The position numbers and the translations under genes are program-made. Below are positions 4,964 through 26,075 of a stretch of 30,699 bases of DNA, piece by piece. The first letter of the stretch is position 1, and every line of letters starts with the position of its first letter. The DNA is taken from positions 1 to 30,699 of the IMG/VR virus record IMGVR_UViG_3300044922_000164. The stretch is one strand, 5' to 3'. The notes beneath the pieces are model-generated. The model worked only from the letters and a program-made list of their open reading frames with translations. It searched no databases and was not told the DNA's origin. Origin of the DNA: a virus.

Positions 4964-7900
4964 TTAATTTACAGGAGATTCGTATGTTGAACCTGTTTCT
5001 GCAGTTATAAACGCAATTACAGGAGTTGCACCAAGTCCCCAATGCATTCCGGTTTTTTTAATAACTGTAATTAATGTTCCTGGAGTTATTGGATGTGTTA
5101 ATCGTATTTGTTTAGTAGTGCCATTAACTGAAAAGTCTGCATCAAACTGAACATCTCCAGCTGGGCTAGATGCACTGTTATTCATATTATGAATTTTAAA
5201 CGGTGCTTTTTTCAATCGTATATTACCAATAAAGTAAATCCATTTACTAGATCTATCAGTTTTAAATTCAGTACTGCTAATATGTGCAACAACACATCGG
5301 TATGTATAGACCCCTACATTTACAATATCATTAACATTATAATAAATCTTAGGTACCCAAGTTGCATTATCGTCATACCCGCCTACAAATACTTCAACGT
5401 TATTACACTGACCGTACCCTGCTGGTATTGACGATGTAAATGTTGGCAGAAATGACCAACTATCTAAAGATTTTGTTGGAGTATAAGACAATGTAATAAG
5501 ATTTGTTCCATCAGAAACAAATTGATCAATACGCACTGTATCACTATAAGAAATTTTTTCAGCTATTCCAATGTCTTGTACTACTGATTGTGCTTTATGT
5601 ATTTCTGCAACACTGGTTCCCATAGTCCCTCTTCTTAAATTACTTAATACATTATTATCATTTATAAAATATTCAATTCGTTCGCCATTAATGTTAATCA
5701 CGCCTGGAATATTGTATGTTTGATTTGCACCTCCAAAAGCTTGCGAATTTACTAACGTAATAGTAGTGTCATGTTGCAATAAATCTTTAGCTAATTTAGT
5801 TTTTTTACTGTTATTTAACCGTGTAAATGTTACTGCGTTTAACATGTCTTTAAATTGCATAAATGCAGTATTAATTTGTGTAGCACCTGGTTGACTACTT
5901 GCTGTAGTAAATACTTTAATTGCAAGCGTGTCAACAACTTGACCCGGAACAACTTCTTCTGGTCCGTACCCGTTAACAGTTGAATAAAACTCATCGCCGT
6001 CTACATTAATATCCTCAGGTGCTAACCCAGCAGCTGACCCCAATGCAAAATTGCCACCTGATAATATTGTATCATAATCATTAACTACTGAACCATCACT
6101 AGTGTGTTTACGAATTATAAAAGTGTCGCCGTTAGCTGCATTAATTGATGACGGAATCTCAATTATATCAGTGTCACCTGTCATTATCGGTGTAGCCATT
6201 ATTGCATTAGGAACGGTTGGGTTTATAACACCGACAACAAAATCAGGATCATCAATTCTTATAGGGTTTAAATAAAATGTTCCGGTATTAGTACCGCTAC
6301 CTGTTAAATAGATCGATGGTGTTCCAATTACTTCTGTAATAGTAAACGACAAATCTTTACTAAATGAACTAACATAATATTCTTTTTCAATCGACACTCC
6401 GCCATTTGAATTTGCAAAATTTATTTTCATACTATCAGTTATTAACGAGGTATCAGATGTCATAAATGATCCGTTTAATATTCCAGTAATAACAAGAGAA
6501 CCAAACTTTTTATAATACACATTAAATGTTGATCCCTTAACAGGTAAATATGGCATAACAATATCATAAGAGAATGTGCTGCCAACAGTGACACTAAAAT
6601 CATTAGTATTAGGATTAAAGTTATCCCAAGTATCTGTGTAATACGGAATACTATCCCACCCTTGAACTACATTAAAGTTTAATCCGCTAACAATTACGCC
6701 ACCGTAATCAACTCCAGACATTAATTGAGGCAAATCTTTTCCTAATTCGCCCGATATTGGTTTATAATAGTATTGTATTCTATCAGTTGCATTTAACACT
6801 TCGTTGTTTTTATAATAATTTACAACAATTACACTAGATTTTGCAGGAGCAACTTTAAATGTTATTACTCCTGTGTACACAGGGTGTCCGTCAAGTATAG
6901 TTGATACAGTGCCTATAGTATAACTATCACGAACCACAGTTTGTCCGTTAATGATAACGTTTGTTTTTCCAACAGTTAAATCAGGTAACCATTTAAGACC
7001 GTATTGAACTTTTGTACCTGTTATATTTTCAAGTGTTTCTGAATATTGTAAATCATCAATTACAAAATCTTGATAAATTCTATCAAATTTCATCTTAATG
7101 TTCGATGTTCTTATTACACTGTTACCTAAAATTGCAATTGCTTTTGCAGATCTACCATCAACTGAATGCCCACCTATAATATTAATTACTGGTGTTGTTG
7201 TATACTTAGATCCGTTTGTTATTAATTTAATTCTAACAATTTGTTTATTAACTATAAACGCCCTTGCAGTTGCACCGGTACCGGTTTCTGATTCAATAAC
7301 AATTGTTGGTTCAGTAAGGTATTCTGCACCTCCATCCGTAATTTTAATATCAACAATAGCATATCCGACAGTATCTAACCATGTTTTCCACGGGTATGTG
7401 TTTATTAACGGATTAGTGTTATCTACTACTTCAATCAATTGCGTTTTTGAATTATATACTGGCGGAAGATCAAAATCACTTACTCCGGTATTGTTAGTAT
7501 CAAGAACATCATAACTACTTATATATTCACGGACTTGCGTTCTGTATGGTTTTACTTCAGACACGTAATCTTCAAAATTTGACAAATTATCATTTTTATA
7601 AGTTGAGGATTGATGCATATATCCAACATTATGCATTACATTAACAAAGCTGGTTTTAAATATCCAATCAATATATGTTTGTTCGCTCATTGCATGTCGT
7701 ACACTTGAAAAGAACAAATCTAAATATTTAGGTTTTAAATCAATGCCTATTAATAAATCATTTTTAATTGCATTTAAAATAATACGTAACTCGGTGTCTG
7801 CATAATTATCATATACTACCGAATCGTAAATTGCACCATCGTATCCAATTGAGGTATCTTTAAAGTTATAAAGCAATGAACTAAATTGAATTGTTCCATT

Positions 7901-10900
7901 CTGACTGCCAACAACTTTATAATCTTCTTTTTGTAATTCTTCATTAAAATATTTTTCTAAAATTACCCATCGACCCGAATTAGTTACGCGAATTTTTACT
8001 CTATCGCCTACTCTATCAAAAAGTTGATATAAATCAGCATATGTGTCAACTGAATGTTGTATAGTAGTAAATTGGTTAATACCCGTTTCGTACCAATCTG
8101 CATACTCCCAATATTTGGTCACATCGTATGCATACGATAACGTTTTGAACCACGTGTGTGATGACGCTATATACGAATATATGCTCCATTTTCCATTAGA
8201 TGAAGAGTCACTTAAAATTAATACTGAAAAACTTCTAACACGTATCACAGTGTCGTCATTATAATTTAAACCACTATTTTCAATAATCACATCAGTAACT
8301 TGTCCAATAGCATTAATAGATGTTTTTAGCAATGCACTTGTTCCAGACCCATATACAGTTAATAACGGTGGATTTACATATCCTCTACCGGGTTCAACAA
8401 TAATTACTTTAGAAATTTTACCATCAGTTATTACTGCATTTAAAATAGGAGTTTTATAGTATTTGGTAATTGCAAATCTTAATTCTGCATCAGTATCTAT
8501 TGTAGTATCGTATAACCGATTCATAACACTTGGAGGCAAATCGTATTTTTTTAAATTTGATAAATCTGCTGTATCAGTTACTAACAGCGGTTTTAAAATT
8601 AAATTAGTTTTTTCAATTAGCTGTTTAAGTGCGTCAAATCTGTTAATAAACATACCTTGACGTGGTCTATTTTCAATTCCGTATCGAATTTTTATAGGAA
8701 GAGACGGATTTGGTACTAATCGATTATTAATGTCTTTACCACATAGACTATCAAACCATTTTTCTTCTATATTTGTTGGTAAAGTAGTTGTTGAGGAATT
8801 ACTAATAAGTTTCCATTGAGTATGAATATTTTGATCAGTTTTATCAACCTTCCAATATTCAACTGATAACACTATATCATTATGTATTAATAATGATTGT
8901 ACATTTATTAGACTAAACGAATCTAACCCTGTTAATGCTAGATATGCATACCCTTCGCCTTTTGGATTACTAATTAATTTAGATATAGTTGCTGCAGATA
9001 TAGATCTACCCGGTATTGCAATTTCTTTATTTTTAACCCAAAAATAATAGATGTACGAAAATGTTTGACTAAGTGTATCATACCGTTTTACTGAACTATA
9101 AACAGCGTCACCGTATAACGATTTTCCGCTTATATTTAATGCTAACCCTGCATCAGTATCTGCTCGTTTATCCCAGTCAGCTGGTTTATATCTACTTGCA
9201 ACCCATTCATATACATCAACAGATGCACCGTATGCTAATGAGCTTAACATACTATTTCTATAAATCACACTATCAGTGAAATTATCAATAAATTTAGTAG
9301 TACGTAAATCCCACCATAATGACCCAACTTGGTCTGAAGTCCACGCAACTCCTTCGTCAACATTTACCGTAGCAGTCCCGACAGTATACACTGCTGGATC
9401 ATATGCAAACTTATATTTAATTTCGCGTTCTGCAATTGTTGGATGTTTATCTTGTATAGGATCTACAATATCTAAATATTTTACTAGTTTATTTGTACGT
9501 CTATTATACAAAAATGCTTGTTTAATTTTAGTAATATCCGGTTTAGGTATTACTTTATTTTTAATTTTCCAAGTATAGGTATTTGTTAATTTTATAAATT
9601 CGTATACTACACCTGCATTATCATTAGACGCAGGAGCTCCTACAATTATACTGTTAGGTGTAACTGTAACAGACGAGCCAAATGTAGCATTGTTAATTAC
9701 AGGATCGATTGGTACTAATCTTTCACTAAAGATCCAGATATTCTTATACATATCAAAAACATCAATTGCAGATGAATATATGCTATTAATAAATGTACTA
9801 AACCTTGTTGGCTCTGTAGTTATTGGAAAAGTAGTTGGATCCGTTACATCATAAAATGTAGCATCTTTTATTAACAACGGTGTAATTGCATGCCCAACTA
9901 TTATAGTTGAAAAATTGTTAATGAATTGTATATTGCTGCCAAACTCACCAGATACTGCAATCGATGGCGATGTTAATGTTTGATTCGGAGCAGCATAATC
10001 ATTAAATTTGTAAATTAATACTTTTCCTTCATACACAACGTCGTCGACTAATGACGAAATTGCAATATAATCATCATTTTTTGATATAGCAACACGCTTT
10101 CCAAATAACCTCGAATTATCCGGCGCTTCAATAATAGTTGGCGATAAATAATCGTTGTTCGTATACACATAAACTTTACCTTTAAGTATAGTATTTGTAG
10201 ATGTATCTTCATTATATGGTTCCGATATTACTAGTGTGTTATTTTGAGAAGCTGCAATGCTAGTTCCAAATTGCAAAGATCCGGTGTCACCTACTAATAC
10301 ATAGTCCTCTATTACCCACTCATATGACAAGAATTCAATAAGTCCGACTGGTTTTTTAGATGGTTCTGCACTAAGTGTAACTGCTGAGTTTTCTATATCG
10401 ACCGATAGTACATATTGCCCATCTTCTAATCCGGTACCGGTAACTAGCATGCCGTCAGTTATATTAGTAGTAGACGATAGCTTTAATACAGCACCATAAC
10501 TTCCGATTGATATATAAACCGGTGTTGCATGTAATACTATCTTATAAGAAATTTGATAAACAGATCCGACTGCTGTTCCAATAAACAACATGTTATTGCC
10601 GAAAGTTACCGAATACCCAAATTGTTCATTGTTTACTGGTGTAGGACTTACTAATGTGTTGTACAGTACATAAAAATTGCTATTATCTTTCTTATATATT
10701 AATACACCGCCTCTCTTATATTGATCAGCTGCAGGTGATCCAATTGCAATCCAATTAGAATCAGCAGACATTGCAATTACCTTAGCAAATCCATCCTTAT
10801 GATACAACGACACCCGACTAAGGATTACTTGGGTTAAAATCCATCCTTGCAATGCAGTGTTACTATAGATCATAACTGATCCTTCGTCTTCTAAATTTTC

Positions 10901-13900
10901 AGCAGTAACTGCAGAAATAGCAATAGTTTTACCATTCTCAGATGCTGCTGACGATCTGCCGTATTGCGTTATCTTAGAATTAGTGCTATTAACTTTTATA
11001 TTACGATTATAAACTGGATTATATTCCCACACTTCCCAATTACTTGTATCATCATAGAAATCAGTATCAATTTGATCATTATCAGTCCATAATTTCATCC
11101 CTGCTGAGACATCTTCTATTTTATAATTATTATCGTCAATTGTTTTTTTAATTCTACGAGATATAAACAATCCTACAATTTGGGTATCAGGTATTGAGAA
11201 TAATGTTCTTTCTGATATATCAATAATACCAGTCCCTTCAACAATAGTCGATACTCCTAAAACTGAAATTTCATTTATTCCGGTATCTGTTAACGAGACT
11301 ACTGTAATAATCAAATCATTAGCAGGACTAGTTCCTCCTAAATTGCTACCTAAAATTGTAATAGTGTCGCCTATTTCATAGTTAGTGCCGCCGTCGACTA
11401 CAGTAACTTCGTACTGTAAATTAGATCGGGTAACAGTAAATACTGATTCGATACCAACTCCTGAGGTTAACCATTGCGAAACTTCGCTATAATCAACATG
11501 TATCTTGTTAACTTCATACACTGTATTGTTAGATAACGATATTATTGATCCAATTTCTAAATCTTTAATATCTTCAAGTATAATATTATTAGTTACTGGG
11601 TCATCCTGAGTAATATCAAGTATGGTATACGAGTTACGACGATCTGCATATTGGTAAATATTCCAATCTAATGGCGCAAATGTACACATTATATACTGGC
11701 CATAACTAAATGTTGAACTATCTGCTGTTAACAAGTCATCTATTGAAGTTAACATTACGTCAACTTCGTCTAATCTTGCATAAACTGTTGAAGTTTTTAC
11801 TGACTTAGCTTCTGGCCAAACATTTGAGGTATAACTGTCTGGTTTTAAAAACACTTCTGACGGAATTTGCTGTATAACAATATTAGATGCACTTGTTCGA
11901 TCATTAACTAATTGAAATCCTTGCGGATTAGTAGTAAAATATGATTCAGGTAAAATAAATTCAACATTTTCAAAAGACGAACATGCACCGTATTGACCTA
12001 CTCGTAATGCCCACTCTTCGTAAAACTGCAAACTTTCTCGATCACTTGCACTTAGAACATCAAATAATTTATTAAGAACATTTTGTGTTCCTTTTTCAAT
12101 AATCATACCTTGATAAAATTTATATTCACTAACATCATCCTGTATAATATTTTCAAGGTATTGTCTTTTTTGATATCCAACTAAATGTTGAGCCATTTTT
12201 TGCTGTGCATCTTCAAAATTTTCACTATCTAAATTGTAAAAATCAGTAAATTGACTTGCTTTATAATTCCAATTCGGTATTAATTTAGGTTGTGGTTTTT
12301 TACTTAATTTAACCCAGTGTGCGTTATTAAACGATTCACTCCCTGGCAACGTTGCATCTGCACTATAATAAAATGACTTATGTTTTACTATATCACCAAC
12401 TGAATATGCTTTCCACGGAGTCCATCCAGTTGTTAATGCTTGATCAACTATAAAACCTGGTACATTTAGTGACCCATTCCAATCAATACTAACGTATCCT
12501 GAAACTTTAAGTTTGTCTTGTTTATACCCACTTTCTAAATTATATATAGTGTCATTAAACATAGTAGTATTATTAATAACTACTACATGTTCACGCCGCA
12601 CTAAGTAAAAACTAGCACAGTATATGCCAACATCATTTCGTGGAGAATAAGAAACTGCATTGTCTACTCTAAATGTATTTAAAAAGTCAGTAGCGATTGG
12701 GTTTCCGCTTGCATCAAAAATTTCATAAACATTTGTAGGTTTATTAATATCATCAACTACAGATAAAATTGTGTTAAACACTAATTTTTTAGCTGCAGGA
12801 CTTAATGAAATTACAGAATTTCCTGTTAAATCAACGCCATTTAACAAATAATATTCATCTTCATTGAACCACCCTAAAGAAGTATTAACTAATGCTTTAT
12901 AAAAATCTCCATTGTATCTTACTAAATCTCCATACAATACTACAGTGTTAGGTGTCCATTCTTTCCATGTTACTGTAGGTGCTGTCCAATTTTGTGTAGT
13001 CCAAAACATAAATTCTTTAGCTGCAGTTTCCCAATTAGATACTGCCGATAACTCAGAATTAAATTCGTCAAATTTAAATCCTTGAACTTTTAACCATTCT
13101 CCGTAACCTATTAAAAAATCAACCACTTCTTGAATTGACCCAAGTTTAGTGCCGTACTGCATTACGATTTCTTGTTGTTTCCAAGCAGCCCTAAATAGAA
13201 CAGTTGCGCCTCCGGATATCGGTAATGAATCTAACTCGTAATATGTCTCAGTAGTAAATGTAGTTGATGTATGATTTAATATTACTCTATAATACTTTCC
13301 TTGATAAGAAACAATATTTCCTTCATTGTAAATATATCCATATCCCCATTCCGTGTAACTTTCGGATATTCCGCCAACATTTGTTAACACGCCTGATGTT
13401 GACAAAGGTTTATAATATGTAAAATAAGGTTGTAATTTGCTATAACCTTTAATTTCAAATCCGCCAACTACTTTAGTAATAATTACTCCACTATATGTTA
13501 ATATAGCAATTGGTGATGAAGTGTTTAATACTAATTTATAATCCTCTTGAGGTATAAAAATACTACCAGTTGCTGTAGGAGATTTTGAATCTAATAGTAA
13601 ATTAAACTTTTCTTTACTTGTAAATGCACTAACTCTATAACATATTTTTGCAGTAATTGTTTCTAAATCATTTTTATATGAGTTATAAGAAGTTAATTGA
13701 TCACAATTAATATAATTAATCAAATAATTTACTAAACCTGCAGTTTGAACACGAGTATTACTTAAATAAACACTTGGAAATTTAATTGCAGCAGGGGTAA
13801 TACGTAAGTTTGTATCTAAATACACAAGTTGACCTGTAACATTTCTAACTAATCGAGATCGATCAAACAACGTTCCAATTATGTGAGAAGGATGTAACAA

Positions 13901-16900
13901 AATAGCAGTTTTTAATACACTAAATGCATAATGCGAATTTCGTCTCCATGCTGTTTCGACTGGAGATCCGTCACCAAAAGAAAAATCACCTTGAATACTA
14001 TACACTCGATCGCCATTTGCTAGCGTACTATCATATGGACTAATTAACTCTCCTTGTTCGTTAACCGGAATATGAGAAAGTAAGAACGGTTTAACATATT
14101 TAGAACGGTAGACAATTGGTTTACCTGGTTCTCTCACTATGCCGTTACTTATATCGTCCCACAGGATTAAATTATTGCTAGTATACGGAGCCGGACCGTA
14201 TATTTCTGTCCACCACATAGGTTCTTCTGTAAATCCTAACATTTCCCAAGGACATATGTGCGGGCGATCAGTATCGAGCATCCATTGATAAATTCCTCTC
14301 CAATATGCCGGTGTAATTCTACCATCAGGCGTAGTATGGTTAGCATAGTTATATGTAAATGAATTTGTTTTATCGTAACTTAGCACTGTTGAAAAATCAA
14401 CACCTGCATCAGATGCCCATTTATTAAAATTTGGCATTATTACTGAATTAAATTCTGATAAACTGTATGCGGTTTTTCGAGAATACGAAGGTATAATGTT
14501 AGTTAAATCAAAAATATAAGGATCGTATTCTACTTTTATGTTATTATAAATTCGTTTTTCTAACTCTAATACTAATGCATCTCGATAATCTTCATATGCT
14601 GCAGTTAAACTACCGTCGTGACCTTGAATCATTATTCTAGGGTTAACTAACGAAGTATCTAAAAATATTTTTGGTTCGTATTTTGGCCATAATCCTAATT
14701 TTGTTGGTGTTTCTGGAATCAAACATCCATCTGTACTATCATATTCATAAATTGTTATCACATCTCCTGCAATTAACGGTGCATGTACGAATACAAACCC
14801 TTGATCATTAAAATTATAATTATGATTATGTAATAGTTGCACATCATTTAAATACACACCTACTGCCTTGCTCGATAACTTTGATAAACTAAACACTTCT
14901 GATAACGAAAAAATATTATCTTCCGGAGCAGCTACTGTAAAATTAACTTGTGTCTTTGCATTATATGGTACCATATCACTAAAATAATACGGTGCTGTTT
15001 TAGACATATCTTTAAACATGTCTTGTAAAATTATGTTAACGTGTGTAAATGGATTAGTATCAATACCTAAGGTTTCAGCAACAGTTAAAAAAGATTTTTT
15101 AAATTTACAATAATCATCTCGTGATTGATCAACTGCTCTTACTATATTGTTTGTATCAGACGTAATATGATATACTGATAAACTAGCAGGACCGCTATGT
15201 TGAACAAACTTTGTACCAAACTGAGAAATACTACCTAAATCTCTTAAATTACTAGTACCAGGATAACTTCCTTTAAAACCAATTCTATAAATGTTGTCAA
15301 CAATGCTACCTACATGATCAATAACTTCACCTAATGTAAACTCTGATAATACTCCGTTTAACGGATTATTCTGTAAATTAATAGGTATTTCATAATATCC
15401 ATTGTTGTTAATTGGATTCATTGAGAATACTTTAATTAATACTATATCAGTTAATTTAAGATCATTATCAAATTTTATTTGATGATACGGTAAGTTAACA
15501 TTTTTTGAGTTAGTTGAAATAACTTGGTAATAATTTAACTTACTATCTTTTAATTCAGTTGATGCAGGATGCCATTCAATAGCGCGTACATTGTTTACAT
15601 AAACCCGTAAATCTATATCATCAATATTAGGCAAGTTATCAAAAATATCAATATCAAAGTTATTAACAAAATTAGAATCTTTATATAATTGTATTGCAGG
15701 TTGTGTATTTTTAATGTTAGCAGTTTCCCACCCGTTAGTGTATGTTACTCGATTATTAATAGTTTTAATCAAAAATCCAGTATCAATTGATTGTTCAACT
15801 GTTTTTTCATTTAATTCGTATTGAAATGTATCAGTAATCAATGAAAATTTAAAAACAATATCTCCAATATTATTAATATTTTTATACGATAATGCAAACC
15901 CTAAATTGTTGTCAGATGTGCCACTTCCTATTTTATAAGAAAAAATTGAAGTACCAGTAAACGTTGTACCAGGGTAAACAGTTTTGTCACCTACACTTAC
16001 TAAATTAGCATCAACTATGTCAAATAACGGTGGTTGATTTGAAGATGTTTTACTTTGGCATTTAGTCCATGCTGTGCCATTAAACCAATACATTGTACCT
16101 TGAGAAGTTACTCCTTCTTTTACTAACACAACTTGATTATACTTTGGTTCAGAAACTTTTACTAAGCGAATTTGGCGACTCGAGTCAACTGTTGTAATAA
16201 GATTAGTAATTGTACCTGCTACCGGTTTATTACCCCCAATAACCATATATTCAATACTAGTTGAACTAATAATTGCAGTTACTTTAATAGCATCTGGTGT
16301 AATCTTTCCGCTATATAACTTGCCAGTTACTGATGTTGCAGAAAGAGTTGCTCCAATAAAAAGATTTACCGTTGACGTTAATCCAGTAATAGCTGCTGTC
16401 CATCCCGAATTAACTGCAGTAACTTGTGTAATTGTTCCGGCAGTACTTATGATTCGATTACCTATCTCGTGTAATACATCAATAAATTCAACTTCGTATA
16501 TGTTATTTTTTACAAGAATATCAGTATCTGCGGTAAAAATTACACGCTGACCATTAGATACAGAAATTCCATCAATATTGTACCCATATGCCCCTTCGAC
16601 TAATGAGAATGCATCAACCGTATAATCATCAATCACGTTAATATCAGTAATTGCAGTATTTCCAAAATTAAATAATTTTAAATTTTGTTCAAATTCAATA
16701 ATTGGTCTAACTGCTCGAAATGATTGATCGTATGTTGCAGTTATGCTGTTAACTAACGCACTAGATTCAATAACGTCTTTGTGAACCCATTTATTATTTC
16801 TACTCCAGTAATTTCTATCAGCACTTGCTCGGTTAATCACTATATAATCAGGATTAGTAACATACGAAGTTGAATCACTAAATGGCGAAGTGTCAAATAC

Positions 16901-18025
16901 TACAGTATCAAATAACATAGATTTTGTCGTAGTATATGCTGTTATGATTTCTAAATCTTTTTCATTTATTAATTGTATACTACTACCTACACCTTCAACA
17001 AAATATCGGCCAGTTGCATATGATTTAGGGTATACTAATCCTGCAAATTGTACCCGCATACCGTTACTTAATTCAACATCATTAAATTTATATGTTTTCT
17101 TTCCAATAATTTCTGCGTTAACATTAATTTGGCTTTTGTCACTAGGATCTAATATAACAAACATGCCTCCCATATCAATATTGTTTTCGCAAACATATAT
17201 TAACTCATCAGGAGCTGTAATAGGAACTGTAAAGGTGATAGTACCTGTCTCAACTGCATACACCATGCGCTGCACATTGTTACCGTATGTATCCTTTACC
17301 GTAACAAAAACATCAGTTGTTAACGTTGGTGTAATATATCGATCAGTTATCCCTTCAGATCTTTCAGTTTTAATAATAAACGGACTACCGATACTATCAA
17401 TTTTAAATGTATATGTATGCCCTCTATATAACGTGATTACTGGATTTTGTGTTAACCCGTCAGGAGAAAATATATAAGTACTACCGTCAACTGTAATATT
17501 TGCTGTTACTTGATATGTACTAACTACTGTAGCGTTAGTACTATTAAAGATTGTAACAGTATCAGGACCGTGAGGCATCCAATAGTAATTTTGAAAGTTA
17601 ACAAATTTATCCCAATTAATATGAGGATTCCAACTATAAAATTCTTGAAAGTTTAATCGAGAATGATCTGAAACATTTGCACCAAAAACTATTAATTGGT
17701 TAATATAGTCTTGATAATCTTTTAAAAATACAGTATTATCAAGCTCGTCGTCAATTACAAACCCTGGTTCTAATTGGTAGTTTTGTCTAACTGCATTTGG
17801 CGCATCAACAAACACATCTGTTGACACTGTAGATTTAGCATACTGTCTTCCAATATATCCACTAACTTTTTTAACTTGGCCTGATTGGGTAAGTTGATTA
17901 ATTGTCGAATGCAAAAACTTTTTGTTAGCATCGGTTCTATAATGCCTAGGTAAAAACGATGCAGATGTTGCTTCGTCACTTGTATCAGTTTGTTTAAATC
18001 TAGGTATAATATTTTTATTAGCCAT
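4964..18025 (-). CDS. Giant virion structural protein in the gp7/gpI position
   Basis: This single uninterrupted frame of 4353 residues starts at an ATG overlapping the gp6 stop by one base (TAATG), with GGAG six bases upstream. The N-terminus (IPRFKQTDTSDEATSASFLPRHYR) and later motifs (PAYWRGIYQWMLDTDRPHIC and PWEMLGF near 1255; KTSFVNVMHNVGY and SEVKPYRTQVREY near 3450-3500) recall giant structural proteins of cyanophages. Modules visible in order: cupredoxin-like fold (194-291), three CBM5/12-like modules (1557-1602, 1687-1730, 1867-1911), a glycine-rich beta repeat (about 2200-2258), a seven-blade FG-GAP propeller (2352-2813), two more such repeats (about 3200-3257 and 3560-3620), and a fourth CBM-like module (4222-4268). 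No signal peptide, protease or glycosidase motif is evident. T4 gp7 is 1032 residues. A wedge protein expanded with surface-binding modules is my inference; it could instead be an elongated fibre. Confidence 0.75.
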   Translation of the reverse strand: MANKNIIPRFKQTDTSDEATSASFLPRHYRTDANKKFLHSTINQLTQSGQVKKVSGYIGRQYAKSTVSTDVFVDAPNAVRQNYQLEPGFVIDDELDNTVFLKDYQDYINQLIVFGANVSDHSRLNFQEFYSWNPHINWDKFVNFQNYYWMPHGPDTVTIFNSTNATVVSTYQVTANITVDGSTYIFSPDGLTQNPVITLYRGHTYTFKIDSIGSPFIIKTERSEGITDRYITPTLTTDVFVTVKDTYGNNVQRMVYAVETGTITFTVPITAPDELIYVCENNIDMGGMFVILDPSDKSQINVNAEIIGKKTYKFNDVELSNGMRVQFAGLVYPKSYATGRYFVEGVGSSIQLINEKDLEIITAYTTTKSMLFDTVVFDTSPFSDSTSYVTNPDYIVINRASADRNYWSRNNKWVHKDVIESSALVNSITATYDQSFRAVRPIIEFEQNLKLFNFGNTAITDINVIDDYTVDAFSLVEGAYGYNIDGISVSNGQRVIFTADTDILVKNNIYEVEFIDVLHEIGNRIISTAGTITQVTAVNSGWTAAITGLTSTVNLFIGATLSATSVTGKLYSGKITPDAIKVTAIISSTSIEYMVIGGNKPVAGTITNLITTVDSSRQIRLVKVSEPKYNQVVLVKEGVTSQGTMYWFNGTAWTKCQSKTSSNQPPLFDIVDANLVSVGDKTVYPGTTFTGTSIFSYKIGSGTSDNNLGFALSYKNINNIGDIVFKFSLITDTFQYELNEKTVEQSIDTGFLIKTINNRVTYTNGWETANIKNTQPAIQLYKDSNFVNNFDIDIFDNLPNIDDIDLRVYVNNVRAIEWHPASTELKDSKLNYYQVISTNSKNVNLPYHQIKFDNDLKLTDIVLIKVFSMNPINNNGYYEIPINLQNNPLNGVLSEFTLGEVIDHVGSIVDNIYRIGFKGSYPGTSNLRDLGSISQFGTKFVQHSGPASLSVYHITSDTNNIVRAVDQSRDDYCKFKKSFLTVAETLGIDTNPFTHVNIILQDMFKDMSKTAPYYFSDMVPYNAKTQVNFTVAAPEDNIFSLSEVFSLSKLSSKAVGVYLNDVQLLHNHNYNFNDQGFVFVHAPLIAGDVITIYEYDSTDGCLIPETPTKLGLWPKYEPKIFLDTSLVNPRIMIQGHDGSLTAAYEDYRDALVLELEKRIYNNIKVEYDPYIFDLTNIIPSYSRKTAYSLSEFNSVIMPNFNKWASDAGVDFSTVLSYDKTNSFTYNYANHTTPDGRITPAYWRGIYQWMLDTDRPHICPWEMLGFTEEPMWWTEIYGPAPYTSNNLILWDDISNGIVREPGKPIVYRSKYVKPFLLSHIPVNEQGELISPYDSTLANGDRVYSIQGDFSFGDGSPVETAWRRNSHYAFSVLKTAILLHPSHIIGTLFDRSRLVRNVTGQLVYLDTNLRITPAAIKFPSVYLSNTRVQTAGLVNYLINYINCDQLTSYNSYKNDLETITAKICYRVSAFTSKEKFNLLLDSKSPTATGSIFIPQEDYKLVLNTSSPIAILTYSGVIITKVVGGFEIKGYSKLQPYFTYYKPLSTSGVLTNVGGISESYTEWGYGYIYNEGNIVSYQGKYYRVILNHTSTTFTTETYYELDSLPISGGATVLFRAAWKQQEIVMQYGTKLGSIQEVVDFLIGYGEWLKVQGFKFDEFNSELSAVSNWETAAKEFMFWTTQNWTAPTVTWKEWTPNTVVLYGDLVRYNGDFYKALVNTSLGWFNEDEYYLLNGVDLTGNSVISLSPAAKKLVFNTILSVVDDINKPTNVYEIFDASGNPIATDFLNTFRVDNAVSYSPRNDVGIYCASFYLVRREHVVVINNTTMFNDTIYNLESGYKQDKLKVSGYVSIDWNGSLNVPGFIVDQALTTGWTPWKAYSVGDIVKHKSFYYSADATLPGSESFNNAHWVKLSKKPQPKLIPNWNYKASQFTDFYNLDSENFEDAQQKMAQHLVGYQKRQYLENIIQDDVSEYKFYQGMIIEKGTQNVLNKLFDVLSASDRESLQFYEEWALRVGQYGACSSFENVEFILPESYFTTNPQGFQLVNDRTSASNIVIQQIPSEVFLKPDSYTSNVWPEAKSVKTSTVYARLDEVDVMLTSIDDLLTADSSTFSYGQYIMCTFAPLDWNIYQYADRRNSYTILDITQDDPVTNNIILEDIKDLEIGSIISLSNNTVYEVNKIHVDYSEVSQWLTSGVGIESVFTVTRSNLQYEVTVVDGGTNYEIGDTITILGSNLGGTSPANDLIITVVSLTDTGINEISVLGVSTIVEGTGIIDISERTLFSIPDTQIVGLFISRRIKKTIDDNNYKIEDVSAGMKLWTDNDQIDTDFYDDTSNWEVWEYNPVYNRNIKVNSTNSKITQYGRSSAASENGKTIAISAVTAENLEDEGSVMIYSNTALQGWILTQVILSRVSLYHKDGFAKVIAMSADSNWIAIGSPAADQYKRGGVLIYKKDNSNFYVLYNTLVSPTPVNNEQFGYSVTFGNNMLFIGTAVGSVYQISYKIVLHATPVYISIGSYGAVLKLSSTTNITDGMLVTGTGLEDGQYVLSVDIENSAVTLSAEPSKKPVGLIEFLSYEWVIEDYVLVGDTGSLQFGTSIAASQNNTLVISEPYNEDTSTNTILKGKVYVYTNNDYLSPTIIEAPDNSRLFGKRVAISKNDDYIAISSLVDDVVYEGKVLIYKFNDYAAPNQTLTSPSIAVSGEFGSNIQFINNFSTIIVGHAITPLLIKDATFYDVTDPTTFPITTEPTRFSTFINSIYSSAIDVFDMYKNIWIFSERLVPIDPVINNATFGSSVTVTPNSIIVGAPASNDNAGVVYEFIKLTNTYTWKIKNKVIPKPDITKIKQAFLYNRRTNKLVKYLDIVDPIQDKHPTIAEREIKYKFAYDPAVYTVGTATVNVDEGVAWTSDQVGSLWWDLRTTKFIDNFTDSVIYRNSMLSSLAYGASVDVYEWVASRYKPADWDKRADTDAGLALNISGKSLYGDAVYSSVKRYDTLSQTFSYIYYFWVKNKEIAIPGRSISAATISKLISNPKGEGYAYLALTGLDSFSLINVQSLLIHNDIVLSVEYWKVDKTDQNIHTQWKLISNSSTTTLPTNIEEKWFDSLCGKDINNRLVPNPSLPIKIRYGIENRPRQGMFINRFDALKQLIEKTNLILKPLLVTDTADLSNLKKYDLPPSVMNRLYDTTIDTDAELRFAITKYYKTPILNAVITDGKISKVIIVEPGRGYVNPPLLTVYGSGTSALLKTSINAIGQVTDVIIENSGLNYNDDTVIRVRSFSVLILSDSSSNGKWSIYSYIASSHTWFKTLSYAYDVTKYWEYADWYETGINQFTTIQHSVDTYADLYQLFDRVGDRVKIRVTNSGRWVILEKYFNEELQKEDYKVVGSQNGTIQFSSLLYNFKDTSIGYDGAIYDSVVYDNYADTELRIILNAIKNDLLIGIDLKPKYLDLFFSSVRHAMSEQTYIDWIFKTSFVNVMHNVGYMHQSSTYKNDNLSNFEDYVSEVKPYRTQVREYISSYDVLDTNNTGVSDFDLPPVYNSKTQLIEVVDNTNPLINTYPWKTWLDTVGYAIVDIKITDGGAEYLTEPTIVIESETGTGATARAFIVNKQIVRIKLITNGSKYTTTPVINIIGGHSVDGRSAKAIAILGNSVIRTSNIKMKFDRIYQDFVIDDLQYSETLENITGTKVQYGLKWLPDLTVGKTNVIINGQTVVRDSYTIGTVSTILDGHPVYTGVITFKVAPAKSSVIVVNYYKNNEVLNATDRIQYYYKPISGELGKDLPQLMSGVDYGGVIVSGLNFNVVQGWDSIPYYTDTWDNFNPNTNDFSVTVGSTFSYDIVMPYLPVKGSTFNVYYKKFGSLVITGILNGSFMTSDTSLITDSMKINFANSNGGVSIEKEYYVSSFSKDLSFTITEVIGTPSIYLTGSGTNTGTFYLNPIRIDDPDFVVGVINPTVPNAIMATPIMTGDTDIIEIPSSINAANGDTFIIRKHTSDGSVVNDYDTILSGGNFALGSAAGLAPEDINVDGDEFYSTVNGYGPEEVVPGQVVDTLAIKVFTTASSQPGATQINTAFMQFKDMLNAVTFTRLNNSKKTKLAKDLLQHDTTITLVNSQAFGGANQTYNIPGVININGERIEYFINDNNVLSNLRRGTMGTSVAEIHKAQSVVQDIGIAEKISYSDTVRIDQFVSDGTNLITLSYTPTKSLDSWSFLPTFTSSIPAGYGQCNNVEVFVGGYDDNATWVPKIYYNVNDIVNVGVYTYRCVVAHISSTEFKTDRSSKWIYFIGNIRLKKAPFKIHNMNNSASSPAGDVQFDADFSVNGTTKQIRLTHPITPGTLITVIKKTGMHWGLGATPVIAFITAETGSTYESPVN
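5222..5362 (-). other. CBM5/12-like module 4 in the giant protein
   Basis: Residues 4222-4268 of the giant protein read TWVP...YYNVNDIV, then YTYRCVVAH and a closing KWIYFI. This follows the chitin-binding CBM5/12 plan (W, Y-x-x-GD-x-V, GxxY, terminal W), with N in place of the usual G before D. It is separated from modules 1-3 by about 2300 residues. Confidence 0.45.
9587..10972 (-). other. Seven-blade FG-GAP-like beta-propeller in the giant protein
   Basis: Residues 2352-2813 contain seven units of the form (F/Y)G-x-(S/A)-(V/A)-x(5-8)-(I/L)-x-(I/V)-(S/G)...G-x-V-x-(I/V)-Y. Unit cores are YGRSSAASENGKTIAIS, GFAKVIAMSADSNWIAIGSP, FGYSVTFGNNMLFIGT, FGTSIAASQNNTLVISEP, FGKRVAISKNDDYIAISS, FGSNIQFINNFSTIIVGH and FGSSVTVTPNSIIVGAP. 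Seven is the number that closes an integrin-alpha-type propeller. About 80 residues are inserted between units 3 and 4. Calcium-loop residues (DxDxDG) are not evident, so metal binding is doubtful. Confidence 0.6.
12293..12427 (-). other. CBM5/12-like module 3 in the giant protein
   Basis: Residues 1867-1911 read GWTPWKAYSVGDIVKH, then FYYSA, then AHWVKL. Among the four copies this is the best match to the chitinase carbohydrate-binding CBM5/12 pattern: an aromatic pair, Y-x-x-GD-x-V and a closing W. Confidence 0.55.
12836..12967 (-). other. CBM5/12-like module 2 in the giant protein
   Basis: Residues 1687-1730 read WKEWTPNTVVLYGDLVRYNG, then FYKALVN, with EYYLL at the close. The pattern is as in module 3, 180 residues upstream of it. 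Confidence 0.5.
13220..13357 (-). other. CBM5/12-like module 1 in the giant protein
   Basis: Residues 1557-1602 read YTEWGYGYIYNEGNIVSYQG, then YYRVILNH and TYYEL. The GD pair is GN here. Modules 1-3 fall within 355 residues of each other. Confidence 0.45.
17153..17446 (-). other. Cupredoxin-like domain lacking copper ligands
   Basis: Residues 194-291 follow the pattern of cupredoxin-like domains common in marine phage proteins: NPVITLYRGHTYTFKI, GSPFIIKTE, GTITFTVP...AP, then LIYVCENNIDMGGMFVI. Those domains usually read GHPF and C-x-x-H-x-x-M; here the two histidine places are S214 and N282, while C279 and M285 remain. A structural, non-copper role is inferred. Confidence 0.5.
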
Positions 18026-21000
18026 TAGTTACTCCCATAGGTTGAGCTAGTTATAAATTGTCGAGTTAGTGTATTATTATCAATAGATAAATTTGACGAT
18101 TTGATGTTTGTTGCAGTAATTCCTGAAATAATTTCAATGTCGTTAACAGTTGCACCGCTAACTAAAATTTCATTACTCTCTGATTTTATTTCATACAATC
18201 CGCCAAAATTAATATCTGAATGTTTAGGTACAATTACAAAATTAGATACGTACGGAGAAACTTTAGTTACAACATATGTTACTAACTCTGTAAAAAAGAA
18301 GGTATCTCCAAACTCCCAATTATCTAAAGAAAAGAACTCGTTAATTGCCGATATTACTTGAGATTTAACATCGTTATCGGATACTACTTGACCTGGTGTT
18401 TTTGTAATCTTAAACGTTGCTTGTAACTCTAATGCTGCAGCTGATCCAAATAAAACTTTATAATTAACCGGATGATATATAACTTCATCCGAAATAGATT
18501 TAATTAAATTTAATGTAGGTGCTACAACATTATACAATTCATCCGAGCTTGGTGGTAATGGTCTAGTTATAATTGATCCATTAATCCATTGTCTAAACAA
18601 CATGTCATACGATTTAGTTAACATATACACATCGATAATGTTACTTGCACCGGGATCAATTCTTGAATCATAACTTGCTGCATGTTTATATTGGAATTTT
18701 AACTTATCTCGCCCTCTGTATACTTTGTAATCTGTTGATATTACTAACATTCCGGTACTATTAGCTTGTTTTACTAAATTTGTATTAACAAAATAATAAT
18801 ATTTTCCCGGAATGCTAATATCCAACTCGTCTATTACTATTTCAACAATATTGTTAGTATTACTAATATATCGATAATCATCTTGACCTTGCGATATTGA
18901 ATATCGTTCTTGCACTATAAATGCATGTTCGTTAACTGTAGTTTGAACAATTGTATTAAACAGTTCAGGATTATCAACTACTCCGTCGTTATCGAGATCA
19001 GAGAACGAAATAACAATTTTTTTATTGTCAACATATCCATCTAATCCAATATACTCAGAAACAACGTCCCACGAGAAATCAGTTGTAAATGGTTTAGTAG
19101 TTTCTGGATTAGTGTTTATACTTAAAACACTAATTTTGTCTCTTACTACTGAGTTTGAAACAGTTTTTGATAATACATCATTCTTATCATAATAAAATCT
19201 AAGTTGTGCATCGCTTTCAAAAATGTAACGAGTTTCTCGACTTGTTACAACATAATTCTCGTTATTGGTAGTAAACAACAGTAACCAACTTGCATCTTGT
19301 TGTGTTCCTGAAATATCACCTTGCATACTTAACGTAAATGAAGATAAGTAATCTATGTCAGCTTCGTAAACAATTTGCCAACTTTGATTTAACACATTGT
19401 AACTCAATGCAAATGCTTTATTCTCAAATATTAAATCAATAATAGTTGATACTATACTAGTATCTAACACTGATCTAAATTGAGGAATAATTTGATGAAC
19501 GATTGCACCAGTAGGTACCTTAATGTTTAACGTAATTCCAGTAGCCGATGCGCCTGCTACTGTAGTGTCAACAGCAACAACCGATGCCCATAAGAAGCTA
19601 ACTGCACCGGCTATACTTGAAATGTCAACACCTGTGGGTAATTCTACTAATGCATTTTGTAATTTTGTATCAAAGTAATATTGTGCTGAACTGTTTGTAG
19701 GAGTTAAAAACTTAATTAATGCACCTGTTCTAATATATTGCAATTCGTTTTTATTAGCTTGATATTGTCCAACTTGAGCCACAACTCCGTCTGATGTAAT
19801 ACTTCCTGTTGTTAATACATTAGCAACCCATGCAGTTACTACGCTAGTTCCTAATACTGGCAAATTTGTGTAATGTGAATAATAATAATTCCGTAACGCA
19901 CTTCTCTTAAGAATAGAGTTTACAGTGTTATAAATAACTCCTTCAATATCAGTTTTAGTAACATATGAGAACGAATTTGAAATTTGATAATCTTCTGTGT
20001 ACAGTACACCATCGTCTGCAAATAAATTTGTAGAACTATATTTTCCCGTTGGGTCAACTAAGTCAAAATATCTGCTGATTCCACTTGACGACCGATTAAC
20101 TGCTTTTACTTTTAACACTTGTTGACTTACACTTAATGGTGCAATATTATAATCTTCTCCTGTGATCATTCTGTTTTGAGTATAAAATGTAGAAGGGGCG
20201 TTTGCTTTAATATGTGCATTTGTTTCTGCGGCTTCGGCATTAGTTACAGACGATGCTAACGATAATGTTATTATTAACGTTTCTGTCTTTCCTATATTTG
20301 AAACATATGGCACAGAAATTGTTACATTTTTAATGTCTCGTGGATTGATTGAATATGTTATTCCATTACTAGATCTGTAATACACTTTAAATGCACCTAG
20401 TGGTTTATTACCAAATGTTCCGTCACTAAAGTTTAAACTAATTGCGTCACCTGCTCTAGTAGTTACACTGTAAATATTTCTAATATTTTTGTTAATACTG
20501 TTGTAAATAATATTGTTAGCTTCAAAATTTGACACTTTAGTCCATTCTTCTAACTCATTTCCATTTTTATCTAACCTGTATAACCAAACATCCGAGTTAT
20601 TAATCCCAGTAGTGCCTACGTCTACTATTTCATTGCTCCTTGGCTGAGTAACTGTAAACTGAGAATTTGCTAATGTACCTTGTGTAAAATTTAAAAAAAA
20701 TCCAGACCCTGCACTTCCGTATCCTTGACCGTCATTTCTATAGATGCACGACAATCGTTTACCAGATTTTGGTATTTCTTCGTAAATATAATTCTGCCCG
20801 GCAAATGTTGTGCTAGTAACTTCAAAGTTCATTATACGACCAGCAACGGTTTTTGTAAATGGGTAAACAGGAACACCTGTTTCCGAGCTTTTTAATGTAT
20901 ACTTCTCAGTAGGAATACCATAAACAGTAGCTTTATCTGATGGATTTCCAAACTGCTGACTGATATCCATTGCACCATTTATTACTTTAATAAACTGATC

Positions 21001-21459
21001 ATACCAATTAGAATTTGACGAATCATTCCATACTATAATTTGTCCGGATAAGTTACGACCATTACTGTCTAAAATACTTTGGGTTGTTTGAAGGGCTGTA
21101 AATTTAAGCAATCCATGTGCAGCAACATTTCTGCTTGCATTATAGCTGATTAATCGTGCTAGTCGTAATACACTATCGCGACGCTCTGCTAATTCTAAAA
21201 AGTTTTCACGTGCATTTAAGTCTACTCGAAACGCTACACTTTGTCCTAAGAACGCAATTACGTCAATTAACGCTAGGTATTCTGAACTTTCAATGTAATC
21301 ATTAAAATCCTCTGGATAATTTTGGCGAATATAATCAACCATTGTACGCCGTAAATTTTCAAAATCATAACTTTGAAAGTCTGCGTTTCTAAAAGATTGG
21401 TATACTTTTTTCCAATCTTCAGCTACTAATAATCTGTTCTGTCTGTCGGTTGCACTCAT
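18025..21459 (-). CDS. 6: Baseplate wedge protein gp6
   Basis: gp6 forms the ring that links the wedges of the T4 baseplate and belongs to the same superfamily as P2 gpJ. The N-terminal 130 residues are characteristic: an aromatic segment around FRNADFQSYDFENLR, RQNYPEDFNDYIESSEYLALIDV, FLGQSVAFRVDLNARENFL and RLARLISYNASRN. Mid-protein, RMITGEDYNIAPLSVSQQVLKVKAVNR is the gp6/gpJ core. Near the C-terminus, SDINFGGLYEIKSESNEI and VNDIEIISGITA match marine gp6 as I remember it. At 1144 residues it is much longer than T4 gp6 (660), with the extra length mostly central and beta-rich. It has its own late-promoter element and AGGA SD. Its stop overlaps the ATG of the giant gene, so the two are probably made together. 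Confidence 0.9.
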   Translation of the reverse strand: MSATDRQNRLLVAEDWKKVYQSFRNADFQSYDFENLRRTMVDYIRQNYPEDFNDYIESSEYLALIDVIAFLGQSVAFRVDLNARENFLELAERRDSVLRLARLISYNASRNVAAHGLLKFTALQTTQSILDSNGRNLSGQIIVWNDSSNSNWYDQFIKVINGAMDISQQFGNPSDKATVYGIPTEKYTLKSSETGVPVYPFTKTVAGRIMNFEVTSTTFAGQNYIYEEIPKSGKRLSCIYRNDGQGYGSAGSGFFLNFTQGTLANSQFTVTQPRSNEIVDVGTTGINNSDVWLYRLDKNGNELEEWTKVSNFEANNIIYNSINKNIRNIYSVTTRAGDAISLNFSDGTFGNKPLGAFKVYYRSSNGITYSINPRDIKNVTISVPYVSNIGKTETLIITLSLASSVTNAEAAETNAHIKANAPSTFYTQNRMITGEDYNIAPLSVSQQVLKVKAVNRSSSGISRYFDLVDPTGKYSSTNLFADDGVLYTEDYQISNSFSYVTKTDIEGVIYNTVNSILKRSALRNYYYSHYTNLPVLGTSVVTAWVANVLTTGSITSDGVVAQVGQYQANKNELQYIRTGALIKFLTPTNSSAQYYFDTKLQNALVELPTGVDISSIAGAVSFLWASVVAVDTTVAGASATGITLNIKVPTGAIVHQIIPQFRSVLDTSIVSTIIDLIFENKAFALSYNVLNQSWQIVYEADIDYLSSFTLSMQGDISGTQQDASWLLLFTTNNENYVVTSRETRYIFESDAQLRFYYDKNDVLSKTVSNSVVRDKISVLSINTNPETTKPFTTDFSWDVVSEYIGLDGYVDNKKIVISFSDLDNDGVVDNPELFNTIVQTTVNEHAFIVQERYSISQGQDDYRYISNTNNIVEIVIDELDISIPGKYYYFVNTNLVKQANSTGMLVISTDYKVYRGRDKLKFQYKHAASYDSRIDPGASNIIDVYMLTKSYDMLFRQWINGSIITRPLPPSSDELYNVVAPTLNLIKSISDEVIYHPVNYKVLFGSAAALELQATFKITKTPGQVVSDNDVKSQVISAINEFFSLDNWEFGDTFFFTELVTYVVTKVSPYVSNFVIVPKHSDINFGGLYEIKSESNEILVSGATVNDIEIISGITATNIKSSNLSIDNNTLTRQFITSSTYGSN

Positions 21460-21506: not shown

Positions 21507-21944
21507 TTATCTTGTACTTAAACCGTTATCTTCATCAAATCGTAACTGTATTGTTTCTGTAAGATTGTAAATTGAATACGATAACGTAAACACAAGTTGA
21601 ATTCCAGTTTCGTATGTTGATATGTTTGTATCACTAATCTGCACACGAGGATCATAATTAATAATCCTGTTTACATCTTCTACAATTATAGCTTTAGTTT
21701 CTGCTGTCATTGGTTCAAATAACATATCCCATATTATTGTACCAAACGTTGGTTGCATTAATCGTTCACCTTGTCTAATGTGAAAATGATTTAAAATATC
21801 TTGTTTAATTAATTCAAAATCATATAAACTATAATGGTCTGCCTTGCTGCTTAATGTTGAAAACCCTTTATAAGTTTTTGGTAAAATAACTTCGGGCTCT
21901 TTTGTAATTGCAGGTAATTGTATTCTATCGTATATTTGGGTCAT
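21507..21944 (-). CDS. 25: Baseplate wedge protein gp25
   Basis: This is the small wedge protein of the GPW/gp25 family, which sits next to the hub and joins the gp6-gp7-gp53 core bundle in contractile baseplates. It has 145 residues, close to the 132 of T4 gp25. The family signature is clear: YKGFST near 25-30, YDFELIKQDILNHFHIRQGERLMQPTFG across the middle (the ER-P-FG core), IIWDMLFEP, then IINYDPRVQI. The ATG overlaps the gp5 stop (TAATG), with AAGGA upstream, so it ends the hub operon. The gene between spike and gp6 is gp25/gpW in both T4-like marine phages and P2. Despite the historical name, it has no lysozyme activity motif. Confidence 0.95.
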   Translation of the reverse strand: MTQIYDRIQLPAITKEPEVILPKTYKGFSTLSSKADHYSLYDFELIKQDILNHFHIRQGERLMQPTFGTIIWDMLFEPMTAETKAIIVEDVNRIINYDPRVQISDTNISTYETGIQLVFTLSYSIYNLTETIQLRFDEDNGLSTR

Positions 21945-23467
21945 TAAGTTGTTCCTTGATCCTCTGGTGCTTTTACTTTGGCAAAAGTATCAGTTGCAGT
22001 TGTATAAGTTTTCCATAACTTAGCAGGTTCTTTTAATGCTGAACTAACTCCGTCATATCGCCCGTCTGCATCTCTATTAGTTTTAGCTGATGTATAATCA
22101 AGAGGGCTTAAATTTTCATGTTGCGGATATGGTTCAAATGTTGGCACTCGCTTCATTATCGAATCTATAGGCTTCGCTATGTCAGGTAATGTATGAGTTT
22201 TTAATGGTTTAGCAGGAGTAACGCTTGCTGATCCAGAATTTAAATTAATGTTTCCGCCATCGATATTAGTATTACCTGAACGTATATCAACGTTTCCAGT
22301 AACCGCAATTCCTAACTTTCCGCCAATTGTTAAATTTCCATCTTTTGTTGCTCTAACAGTAAAATTTTTAACTGTTTCTAATTGCATATCTTCCATAGCT
22401 TTAATGTTAACGTTTCTACCTGCTTGAAAATTTATATCTCTGTCCGCATGGAAATTAAAATCAGCGCCGGTATGAAAACTAATACTATCTTTAGCATACA
22501 CATCAATCTTACCATTAGCAGTCATTTCGATCCACGAGTTACCGCTACCGTGAGAAATATAAATCAAATCTTCGCTATTATGTAATAAAATTTGATGGCC
22601 TGATCTAGTTCTAATACGAACTAGTTCATTGTGTGGTATTGAATGATCTGAATCTCCCGGTGTCCCGCCAGCCTCAACTCCGACATACGTCGGGCCTGCT
22701 TTATTTGCAGGTTTTTCTCTAACAAATTTATCATCACCGTCATCCATTACAAACGTTGATCCGCCTAATCTGCTCACATACGCATTTTTTATAGGATGAT
22801 CTTTTTTACCAATTGTACCTTGTTTTGCACCTGATGATTTGTCAAGCGGTCCAGGAGTTGAAATTCCAAACACCATACTAGGAGTTTCTCTTCGTGCGCT
22901 ACTAGTAGTTATACCTCGAATGTCATCTTTATCTAATCCTTCCGTTATTAACACTTTTGCAAACGGATGCACTGGCTTTTTAATTTTTGTAGTATCAGCT
23001 GATGTATTACCTTTATTTACAGCTTTGTTATACTCTGCTACCGGTAATCGACTTTCGCCGTCAACTACAGATTCAGTAGCTGCTATTCCAGGAACCATAA
23101 AGTTTATACCGTCATCTTGAACACAGCCCATCCAATACCCACGTTTTGAATCTCCGTCAATAAACACAACAATTACAGTAGTTCCTGGATCAGGCGGGAC
23201 CATCCACATTCCATAGCTTTTTTGTGTATTGTTATAATTATTTGGTTTTGTACTTGTATGATCAACACTAGTAACTCCGTAAAACGGACTCATATATTTT
23301 ACTTGATGGGTTTGACCCGATGACCCGTCATTACCTACATTTCTTAAAATTTCAACTTCTAATCCTCCCATATAGGAAGAATCTAAGTGACTAATTACCT
23401 TAGCTAAAAACGGACCAGGTTTTGATTCGCCAGTCGATGCTGGTATATTATCGTGTGTATCGTTCAT
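21944..23467 (-). CDS. 5: Baseplate hub spike gp5, without a lysozyme domain
   Basis: This is the central spike under the tail tube. Of its 507 residues, about 15-125 form the OB-fold (FLAKVISHL, GGLEVEIL, YGMWMVPPDPGTTVIVVF, YWMGCVQDD). Residues about 290-410 form a VgrG/gp5-type beta-helix with short alternating strands (HQILLHNSEDLIYISHGSG, then repeated DINFQAGRNVNIKA and GNVDIRSGNTNIDGGNINL units). The C-terminus carries MKRVPTFEPYPQHENL, which I recall from other marine gp5 proteins. T4 gp5 has a lysozyme domain between these parts. The 130-165 residues here (KKPVHPFAKVLITEGL, SARRETPSMVFGI) show no such motif. Its ATG lies nine bases after the hub gene's stop. Spike assignment is firm; absence of lysozyme is judged by eye. 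Confidence 0.92.
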   Translation of the reverse strand: MNDTHDNIPASTGESKPGPFLAKVISHLDSSYMGGLEVEILRNVGNDGSSGQTHQVKYMSPFYGVTSVDHTSTKPNNYNNTQKSYGMWMVPPDPGTTVIVVFIDGDSKRGYWMGCVQDDGINFMVPGIAATESVVDGESRLPVAEYNKAVNKGNTSADTTKIKKPVHPFAKVLITEGLDKDDIRGITTSSARRETPSMVFGISTPGPLDKSSGAKQGTIGKKDHPIKNAYVSRLGGSTFVMDDGDDKFVREKPANKAGPTYVGVEAGGTPGDSDHSIPHNELVRIRTRSGHQILLHNSEDLIYISHGSGNSWIEMTANGKIDVYAKDSISFHTGADFNFHADRDINFQAGRNVNIKAMEDMQLETVKNFTVRATKDGNLTIGGKLGIAVTGNVDIRSGNTNIDGGNINLNSGSASVTPAKPLKTHTLPDIAKPIDSIMKRVPTFEPYPQHENLSPLDYTSAKTNRDADGRYDGVSSALKEPAKLWKTYTTATDTFAKVKAPEDQGTT

Positions 23468-25771: not shown

Positions 25772-26074
25772 TTATATCCCTAGTGCTACTTTTAATTTAC
25801 TCAATTGCGGAATATGTATCTGCGTTCCTGGCACAAAATCAAAAATCGGATCTTGAATAACGTCTAAGTTTCGCTGTGTAAAAACCCACCATAGACCTGC
25901 ATCTCCGTACAAATCAAATGCTAATAAATCAGGACGATGCTTATATTGTATTTCAATAGTATACAAAAAATCAATCACTTCTTCTGATACGGTGCGAATC
26001 TTTAAAATATCTAAGTAGTCCTGAGTTACTGGTGTTTTAAACCACGGACTAGTATTTCTGTATTTTGCTATCAT
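25772..26074 (-). CDS. 53: Baseplate wedge protein gp53
   Basis: This 100-residue gp53 family wedge component binds gp6-gp25 in contractile baseplates. Family residues run through the protein: KYRNTSPW at the N-terminus, YLDILKIR, then IEIQYKHRPDLLAFDLYGDAGLWWVFTQRN, DPIFDFVPG and a final IHIPQ, a LysM-like ending. The ATG at 26074 is chosen because it lies one base after the stop of the tube-cap gene and opens directly into the conserved YRNT(S/T)P start. The longer alternative begins with TTG at 26119, inside the upstream gene, and adds 15 unconserved residues. T4 gp53 is 196 residues, so this is a compact version. Confidence 0.9.
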   Translation of the reverse strand: MIAKYRNTSPWFKTPVTQDYLDILKIRTVSEEVIDFLYTIEIQYKHRPDLLAFDLYGDAGLWWVFTQRNLDVIQDPIFDFVPGTQIHIPQLSKLKVALGI

Positions 26075-26075
26075 A

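Follow-up and report, generated by a model that had tools for sequence, protein, structure and literature searches.

A seven-bladed FG-GAP_2 propeller inserted in a hairpin turn of a giant virion protein of uncultured jumbo phages

The giant protein encoded directly after the gp6-like gene of an environmental phage carries a complete seven-bladed propeller of the FG-GAP_2 type, confirmed by profile search and structure prediction, and this propeller is a discrete in-frame cassette within one tight hairpin turn of the protein scaffold. The window, which is the whole 30.7-kb stretch of DNA analysed, is a single fragmentary virus record. In the reading preferred here, to which a probability slightly above one half (about 0.52) is given, the propeller was inserted once, early in an uncultured jumbo-phage lineage, and forms an outward-facing disc that is a putative binder of host glycans or proteins.

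The window contains a minus-strand T4-type baseplate cluster, in the order gp53-like, virion structural protein, gp5-like, gp25-like, gp6-like and the 4,353-aa ORF. The features of the cluster and of the scaffold are the following, with residues of the giant protein in brackets.

25772..26119, minus strand: gp53-like baseplate wedge subunit (phrog_7145, phrog_232)
21944..23467, minus strand: baseplate hub and tail lysozyme, gp5-like (phrog_13211)
21507..21944, minus strand: gp25-like baseplate wedge subunit (phrog_261, phrog_43; named gp25 by synteny with 121Q)
18025..21459, minus strand: gp6-like baseplate wedge subunit, 1144 aa (phrog_10646, E 2e-288)
4964..18025, minus strand: giant 4353-aa virion protein of the phrog_10938 family, which carries the propeller (ORF, profile, mass spectrometry of orthologues)
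11906..14128, minus strand: upstream scaffold, conserved block (1300-2040) found in every cultured relative examined
7436..9583, minus strand: downstream scaffold, conserved block (2815-3530) found in every cultured relative examined
13265..13348, minus strand: CBM_5_12 stretch of chitin-binding type (1560-1587), the best of four in the giant protein (Pfam E 4.6e-12)

The giant protein matches phrog_10938 with an E-value of 1.5e-287 and its position directly after gp6, already recognized in the initial annotation and borne out by the adjoining ORFs 4964-18025 and 18025..21459, is syntenic with cultured relatives. By gene order this slot corresponds to gp7 in T4, and a wedge function had been expected there. 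Homology to T4 gp7 was not recovered: hhalign gave a probability of at most 1.1%, and Foldseek found no PDB match under E 0.001 for the scaffold model, which covers part of the protein (pTM 0.51). Because no gp7 similarity is seen by profile or fold, the label "wedge" comes from gene order alone. Scaffold profiles searched against PDB sequences returned only CBM5/12 chitin-binding or chance-like matches, and self-versus-self blastp detected no internal repeats in the giant protein. The conserved scaffold, at L007:8525-12097 in a related contig, has no significant match to a solved structure by sequence or fold, and possibly represents an undescribed baseplate fold.

The location of the protein in the virion is argued from the detection of orthologues by mass spectrometry. 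PA5oct gp355 is a virion protein by this method, according to its record note. The 382-kDa gp245 of phAPEC6, taken as an orthologue by size and gene order, was found in the virion with 17 unique peptides and is listed after the baseplate wedge gp244 (PMC7247149), and CBB_236, assigned by the same two features, was also detected in the virion by mass spectrometry and is listed beside the CBB_237 wedge (PMC5259590). Some of the four CBM_5_12 stretches of the giant protein lie in the upstream scaffold, and similar modules occur inside a propeller loop of some relatives. Elsewhere in the window, a 69-bp AT-rich tandem repeat of 2.7 copies (28394-28576) lies inside a homing endonuclease-like ORF (27909-29657, DUF7487), located between late sigma factor and SbcD-like genes.

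The propeller cassette, the scaffold strands that enclose it and its blades, delimited by AlphaFold2 strands and blade profiles, are located as follows.

11018..11038, minus strand: hairpin entry strand WEVWEYN (2330-2336); W2330 invariant, strand in the L007 model
9578..11017, minus strand: whole propeller cassette (about 2337-2816), between the two scaffold hairpin strands, delimited by comparison with L007 and L092, where the site is empty
9554..9577, minus strand: hairpin exit strand around YTWKIKNK (2817-2824); W2819 invariant, strand in the L007 model
10808..10972, minus strand: blade 1 (2352-2406)
10634..10795, minus strand: blade 2 (2411-2464), with a 2-3 loop that is long in relatives
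10286..10633, minus strand: blade 3 (2465-2580), with the inserted domain of the next entry
10346..10519, minus strand: small beta domain in the 3-4 loop of blade 3 (about 2503-2560), pLDDT mostly >90
10118..10282, minus strand: blade 4 (2582-2636), which holds the best FG-GAP_2 stretch
9959..10117, minus strand: blade 5 (2637-2689)
9701..9955, minus strand: blade 6 (2691-2775), the most conserved, with a low-confidence insertion in its 2-3 loop
9542..9694, minus strand: blade 7 (2778-2828), whose last strand continues into the scaffold

Seven FG-type units had been reported in the span 2352-2813, which maps exactly to 10972-9587 on the minus strand. All seven are present in the translated ORF: five have a true FG (2469, 2586, 2641, 2695 and 2782), unit 1 has YG (2355-2356) and unit 2 has FA (2413). 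The FG-GAP_2 pattern, in which blades of four strands follow one another with FG on strand 1 and G-x-V-x-I/V-Y on strand 3, is found with these two exceptions for FG, and the Pfam model FG-GAP_2 (PF14312) matches the propeller with 58.2 bits (E 9e-16) against a curated cut-off of 23 bits. Taken singly, 33 of 47 aligned members match this model at E<=0.001, and a few of the 47 match WD40-type propeller models. Single-blade profiles were built from 31 sequences and compared pairwise by hhalign, with stretches of the same giant protein as controls. The median probability was 88% between blades (15 of 21 pairs >50%) and 0.2% between blades and controls (one of 140 >50%), and every blade matched at least one other blade at >80%. 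The FG-GAP_2 E-value and the blade-profile matches far above controls rule out chance motifs. A chimeric contig or random FG motifs could be suspected in a record that is single and fragmentary, but the contigs L001 and L002 share the same architecture with a 57%-identical propeller, and such an artefact, which also faces the E-value given above, is refuted by these related contigs and has a negligible probability.

Structure prediction by AlphaFold2, with residues 2306-2850 and 30 relatives as input, gave a propeller model with pLDDT 82.7 and pTM 0.81, in which 28 strands form seven blades of four antiparallel strands each, so the complete FG-GAP-type propeller proposed from the repeats alone is upheld by both profile and model. 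Values of pLDDT <50 are confined to stretches of the blade 6 loop, at about 2716-2751. Blade 3 has a small inserted domain (about 2503-2560), which is missing or shorter in some relatives, such as L050 and L068. This domain seems to recur in other giant ORFs of related phage contigs (G006:C1:70807-71037 and G008:C1:122455-122667), and is perhaps a mobile module of its own.

In Foldseek searches against the PDB, the integrin alphaIIb and alphaV headpieces 3zdz and 8w30 are among the top matches (E about 1e-8), with TM by target of 0.55 and 0.42, and WD40 proteins are also found. The matched integrin and WD40 structures are closed rings, with TM by target of about 0.5-0.6 to the predicted model; together with the seven complete blades, they suggest that the phage ring is closed too. 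Against viral models the matches reach E 5e-21 and many are FG-GAP proteins of phages and giant viruses, including the Atu_ph07 "hemagglutinin" and a virion protein of cyanophage S-TIM5.

The likeness to integrin is one of fold only. Both propellers have seven FG-GAP-type blades, which supports this part of the initial description as integrin-like, but the phage propeller is built of FG-GAP_2 units without the calcium loops of integrin alpha, with 11-16% identity and a TM of about 0.5 at best. In integrins calcium sits in the 1-2 loops of the propeller. DxDxDG calcium loops are found in none of the 47 aligned members, in which the 1-2 loops are mostly 3-6 aa and hardly vary in length, and PF01839, the calcium-type FG-GAP model, has no match within the window. 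Integrin alpha is part of a membrane receptor together with a beta subunit, whereas the propeller described here sits in a phage virion protein.

The sister contigs L007 and L092 set the edges of the cassette: they are cleanly devoid of the propeller, and their beta-hairpin is intact. The empty site of L007 reads ...GKWATWKRINNNWIVQHTAVEKPDVSKIKQAFLYN, and the occupied site of the window reads ...SNWEVWEYNP-[propeller]-NTYTWKIKNKVIPKPDITKIKQAFLYN. In the L007 scaffold model, two strands joined by a two-residue turn are seen at the empty site, with pLDDT of about 88-90. A similar uninterrupted hairpin-like stretch is found in PA5oct, Atu_ph07, Phosso and SCTP-2; no hairpin can be recognised in the 121Q/RaK2 group. 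Near the hairpin, Atu_ph07 and SCTP-2 have GxGY-type repeats and a domain that is LamG-like by eye. Modules of these kinds occupy a second, separate insertion hot spot shortly upstream of the hairpin in cultured relatives (SCTP-2, which is L084, at about 2100-2340, and also L083 and L086). The SCTP-2 LamG-like domain was considered as an occupant of the propeller insertion point and rejected, as the alignment puts it upstream and the SCTP-2 hairpin is intact; for this reason the idea of one shared swap site was dropped.

Searches with the propeller alone, by tblastn against isolate phages and by pattern in viral contigs, returned nothing because the propeller diverges fast, while the conserved flank used as query retrieved 80 relatives from viral contigs, and later searches added more. 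Both flanks are present in 124 unique sequences, and 113 of these have the propeller, each scoring 110 bits or more against the propeller profile. The comparison of presence and absence suggested in the initial annotation gave a sharp division: the propeller is found in 113 of 115 environmental sequences, a sample biased towards best matches in which the exceptions are the sisters L007 and L092, and in none of nine cultured relatives with both flanks kept (PA5oct, 121Q, RaK2, Atu_ph07, Phosso, SCTP-2 and others). On a phylogeny built from 122 rows of the downstream block, presence and absence require two changes, against a mean of 10.7 in label shuffles. With the cultured phages outside, this is most simply explained by a single acquisition at the root of the uncultured clade and a single loss in L007/L092, although the base of the tree is uncertain owing to the long branches of SCTP-2, L212 and PA5oct. 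A domain that adds decoration or bulk but has little function, tolerated at a permissive site, would agree with this loss and with the repeats and LamG-like domain that accumulate near the site in Atu_ph07 and SCTP-2, but it is an improbable explanation, since the propeller is retained across a deep tree and its core motifs and 1-2 loop lengths appear constrained.

The propeller diverges faster than its surroundings. Across 153 pairwise comparisons, the propeller has a median identity of 38% (its blade strands 42%) and the flanks have 56% and 59%, and in all 153 pairs the propeller is less similar than the downstream flank. The 1-2 loops are nearly fixed (about 3-6 aa), whereas lengths of up to 418 aa are seen in the 2-3 loops and up to 205 aa in the 4-1 loops. 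Long insertions occur in the 2-3 loops of blades 2 and 6, in the connections from blade 1 to blade 2 and from blade 6 to blade 7, and in the 3-4 loop of blade 3; those in the 2-3 loop of blade 2 are CBM5/12-like in some relatives, and two of the 47 propeller regions match CBM_5_12. As the ligand face of the integrin propeller is formed by the 2-3 and 4-1 loops, the variable loops lie mostly on the ligand-type face, but not all of them do, the major insertion in the 3-4 loop of blade 3 being on the opposite face. Blade 6 is the most conserved, with a mean pair identity of 0.52; blade 2, with 0.46, is also well conserved, and blades 1 and 4 have the lowest values.

Many propellers act as docking platforms in protein complexes. 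The main rival to an exposed binding module is a protein-docking hub in the virion, which would hold tail fibres or neighbouring baseplate proteins with no direct host contact. The good conservation of blades 6 and 2 and the retention of the propeller in nearly all environmental sequences speak for such a hub, and the Kelch-type propellers of phage CBB, which include one in a virion protein, have been considered likely to bind proteins (PMC5259590). Its clean loss in two sisters, its faster divergence than the scaffold and loops that vary in length by hundreds of residues argue against it, and the hub is regarded as rather unlikely.

In the preferred reading, a single in-frame insertion would have placed an FG-GAP_2 propeller into the hairpin turn of the giant protein after gp6, and would date from the early history of a large uncultured lineage of jumbo phages. 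Both stalk strands would come from the scaffold hairpin, and therefore the disc could hang off the baseplate with assembly undisturbed. Blades 6 and 7 and the stalk would be nearest the scaffold, and the disc would face outward and bind something, most likely a host surface glycan or protein, through variable contacts mainly on the 2-3 and 4-1 loops. Its proposed role is attachment or short-range adhesion. Exposure is argued from the fast divergence, from the growth of the 2-3 and 4-1 loops against fixed 1-2 loops and from the CBM_5_12 matches in relatives, and dispensability from the clean loss in L007/L092. The propeller would most likely be an exposed binding module and not a part of the wedge, and host binding would be its likely role; the baseplate propellers of the phi11 RBP and phiKZ gp131, with proposed receptor roles, are precedents (PMC4901313). 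Relaxed constraint would also account for the fast divergence and the growth of loops, and a structural job could explain equally well why 113 of 115 environmental sequences keep the propeller. A more elaborate proposal, put forward tentatively and with clearly less confidence, is that a putative receptor-binding disc is built into the baseplate protein and that its loops accept CBM-like modules, which would make it a nested, swappable display platform.

Some polysaccharide lyases use propeller frames, which favours an enzyme, such as a glycan lyase or hydrolase, that would clear surface polysaccharide. The propeller of phiKZ gp131 was itself proposed either to bind or to act as a degrading enzyme (PMC4901313). 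This explanation is very improbable for the propeller described here, in which no enzyme family is matched in the 47 aligned regions, no enzyme family is prominent among the top Foldseek matches in the PDB or viral models, and the invariant positions are mostly G, W, Y and F, with no catalytic-type cluster evident.

Fibres and tailspikes are where host recognition by phages is normally looked for. Propellers in virions are already known, as in phiKZ gp131, the phi11 RBP and the FG-GAP protein of Vibrio phage nt-1; the open-access literature searched yielded no description of an FG-GAP propeller in a phage baseplate. The C-terminal seven-bladed propeller of phiKZ gp131 (4GBF) and the five-bladed one of the phi11 RBP are the closest in setting, both being in phage baseplates with receptor binding proposed (PMC4901313), but they belong to separate peripheral proteins. 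Neither was found by sequence, and 4GBF is not among the best 50 PDB fold matches listed. The CBB propellers, from a related jumbo phage with one in the virion (PMC5259590), are of the Kelch type and encoded by separate genes, whereas the one described here is FG-GAP and inserted.

The FG-GAP_2 propellers of nt-1, the Atu_ph07 "hemagglutinin", Phosso XYS97288/XYS97289 and S-TIM5 belong to the same family or neighbourhood by sequence or fold. Several phage proteins of this type are annotated as virion or FG-GAP proteins; FG-GAP names are already on those of nt-1 and an uncultured phage, and related propellers are otherwise named in Atu_ph07 and S-TIM5. The Sinorhizobium phage Phosso has two stand-alone FG-GAP_2 proteins of 392-394 aa (L233:45125-47533; 92124-94532) and two giant proteins of 3162 and 3692 aa with many propeller-profile matches (L233:1339-21979; 48338-68978), all annotated as hypothetical, and these stand-alone propellers and repeat-rich giant proteins lie outside the Phosso giant protein after gp6. 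The propellers examined among these are in separate genes or in other giant proteins, in contrast to the in-frame insertion described here. In giant virion proteins of the RaK2/121Q/PA5oct type (phrog_10938) the scaffold is orthologous and in the same slot after gp6, but the propeller is absent in the nine cultured members examined.

What is new here is the exact insertion of a propeller into the giant protein after gp6, across a large uncultured clade. The empty sites in two sister phages offer sharp domain edges for expression and a natural control, and the giant proteins after gp6 are places to seek host-range determinants in metagenomic phages with hosts unknown. If the proposal of a display platform is true, these phages would carry an adhesion module within the baseplate itself, in contrast to the separate fibre proteins of known cases.
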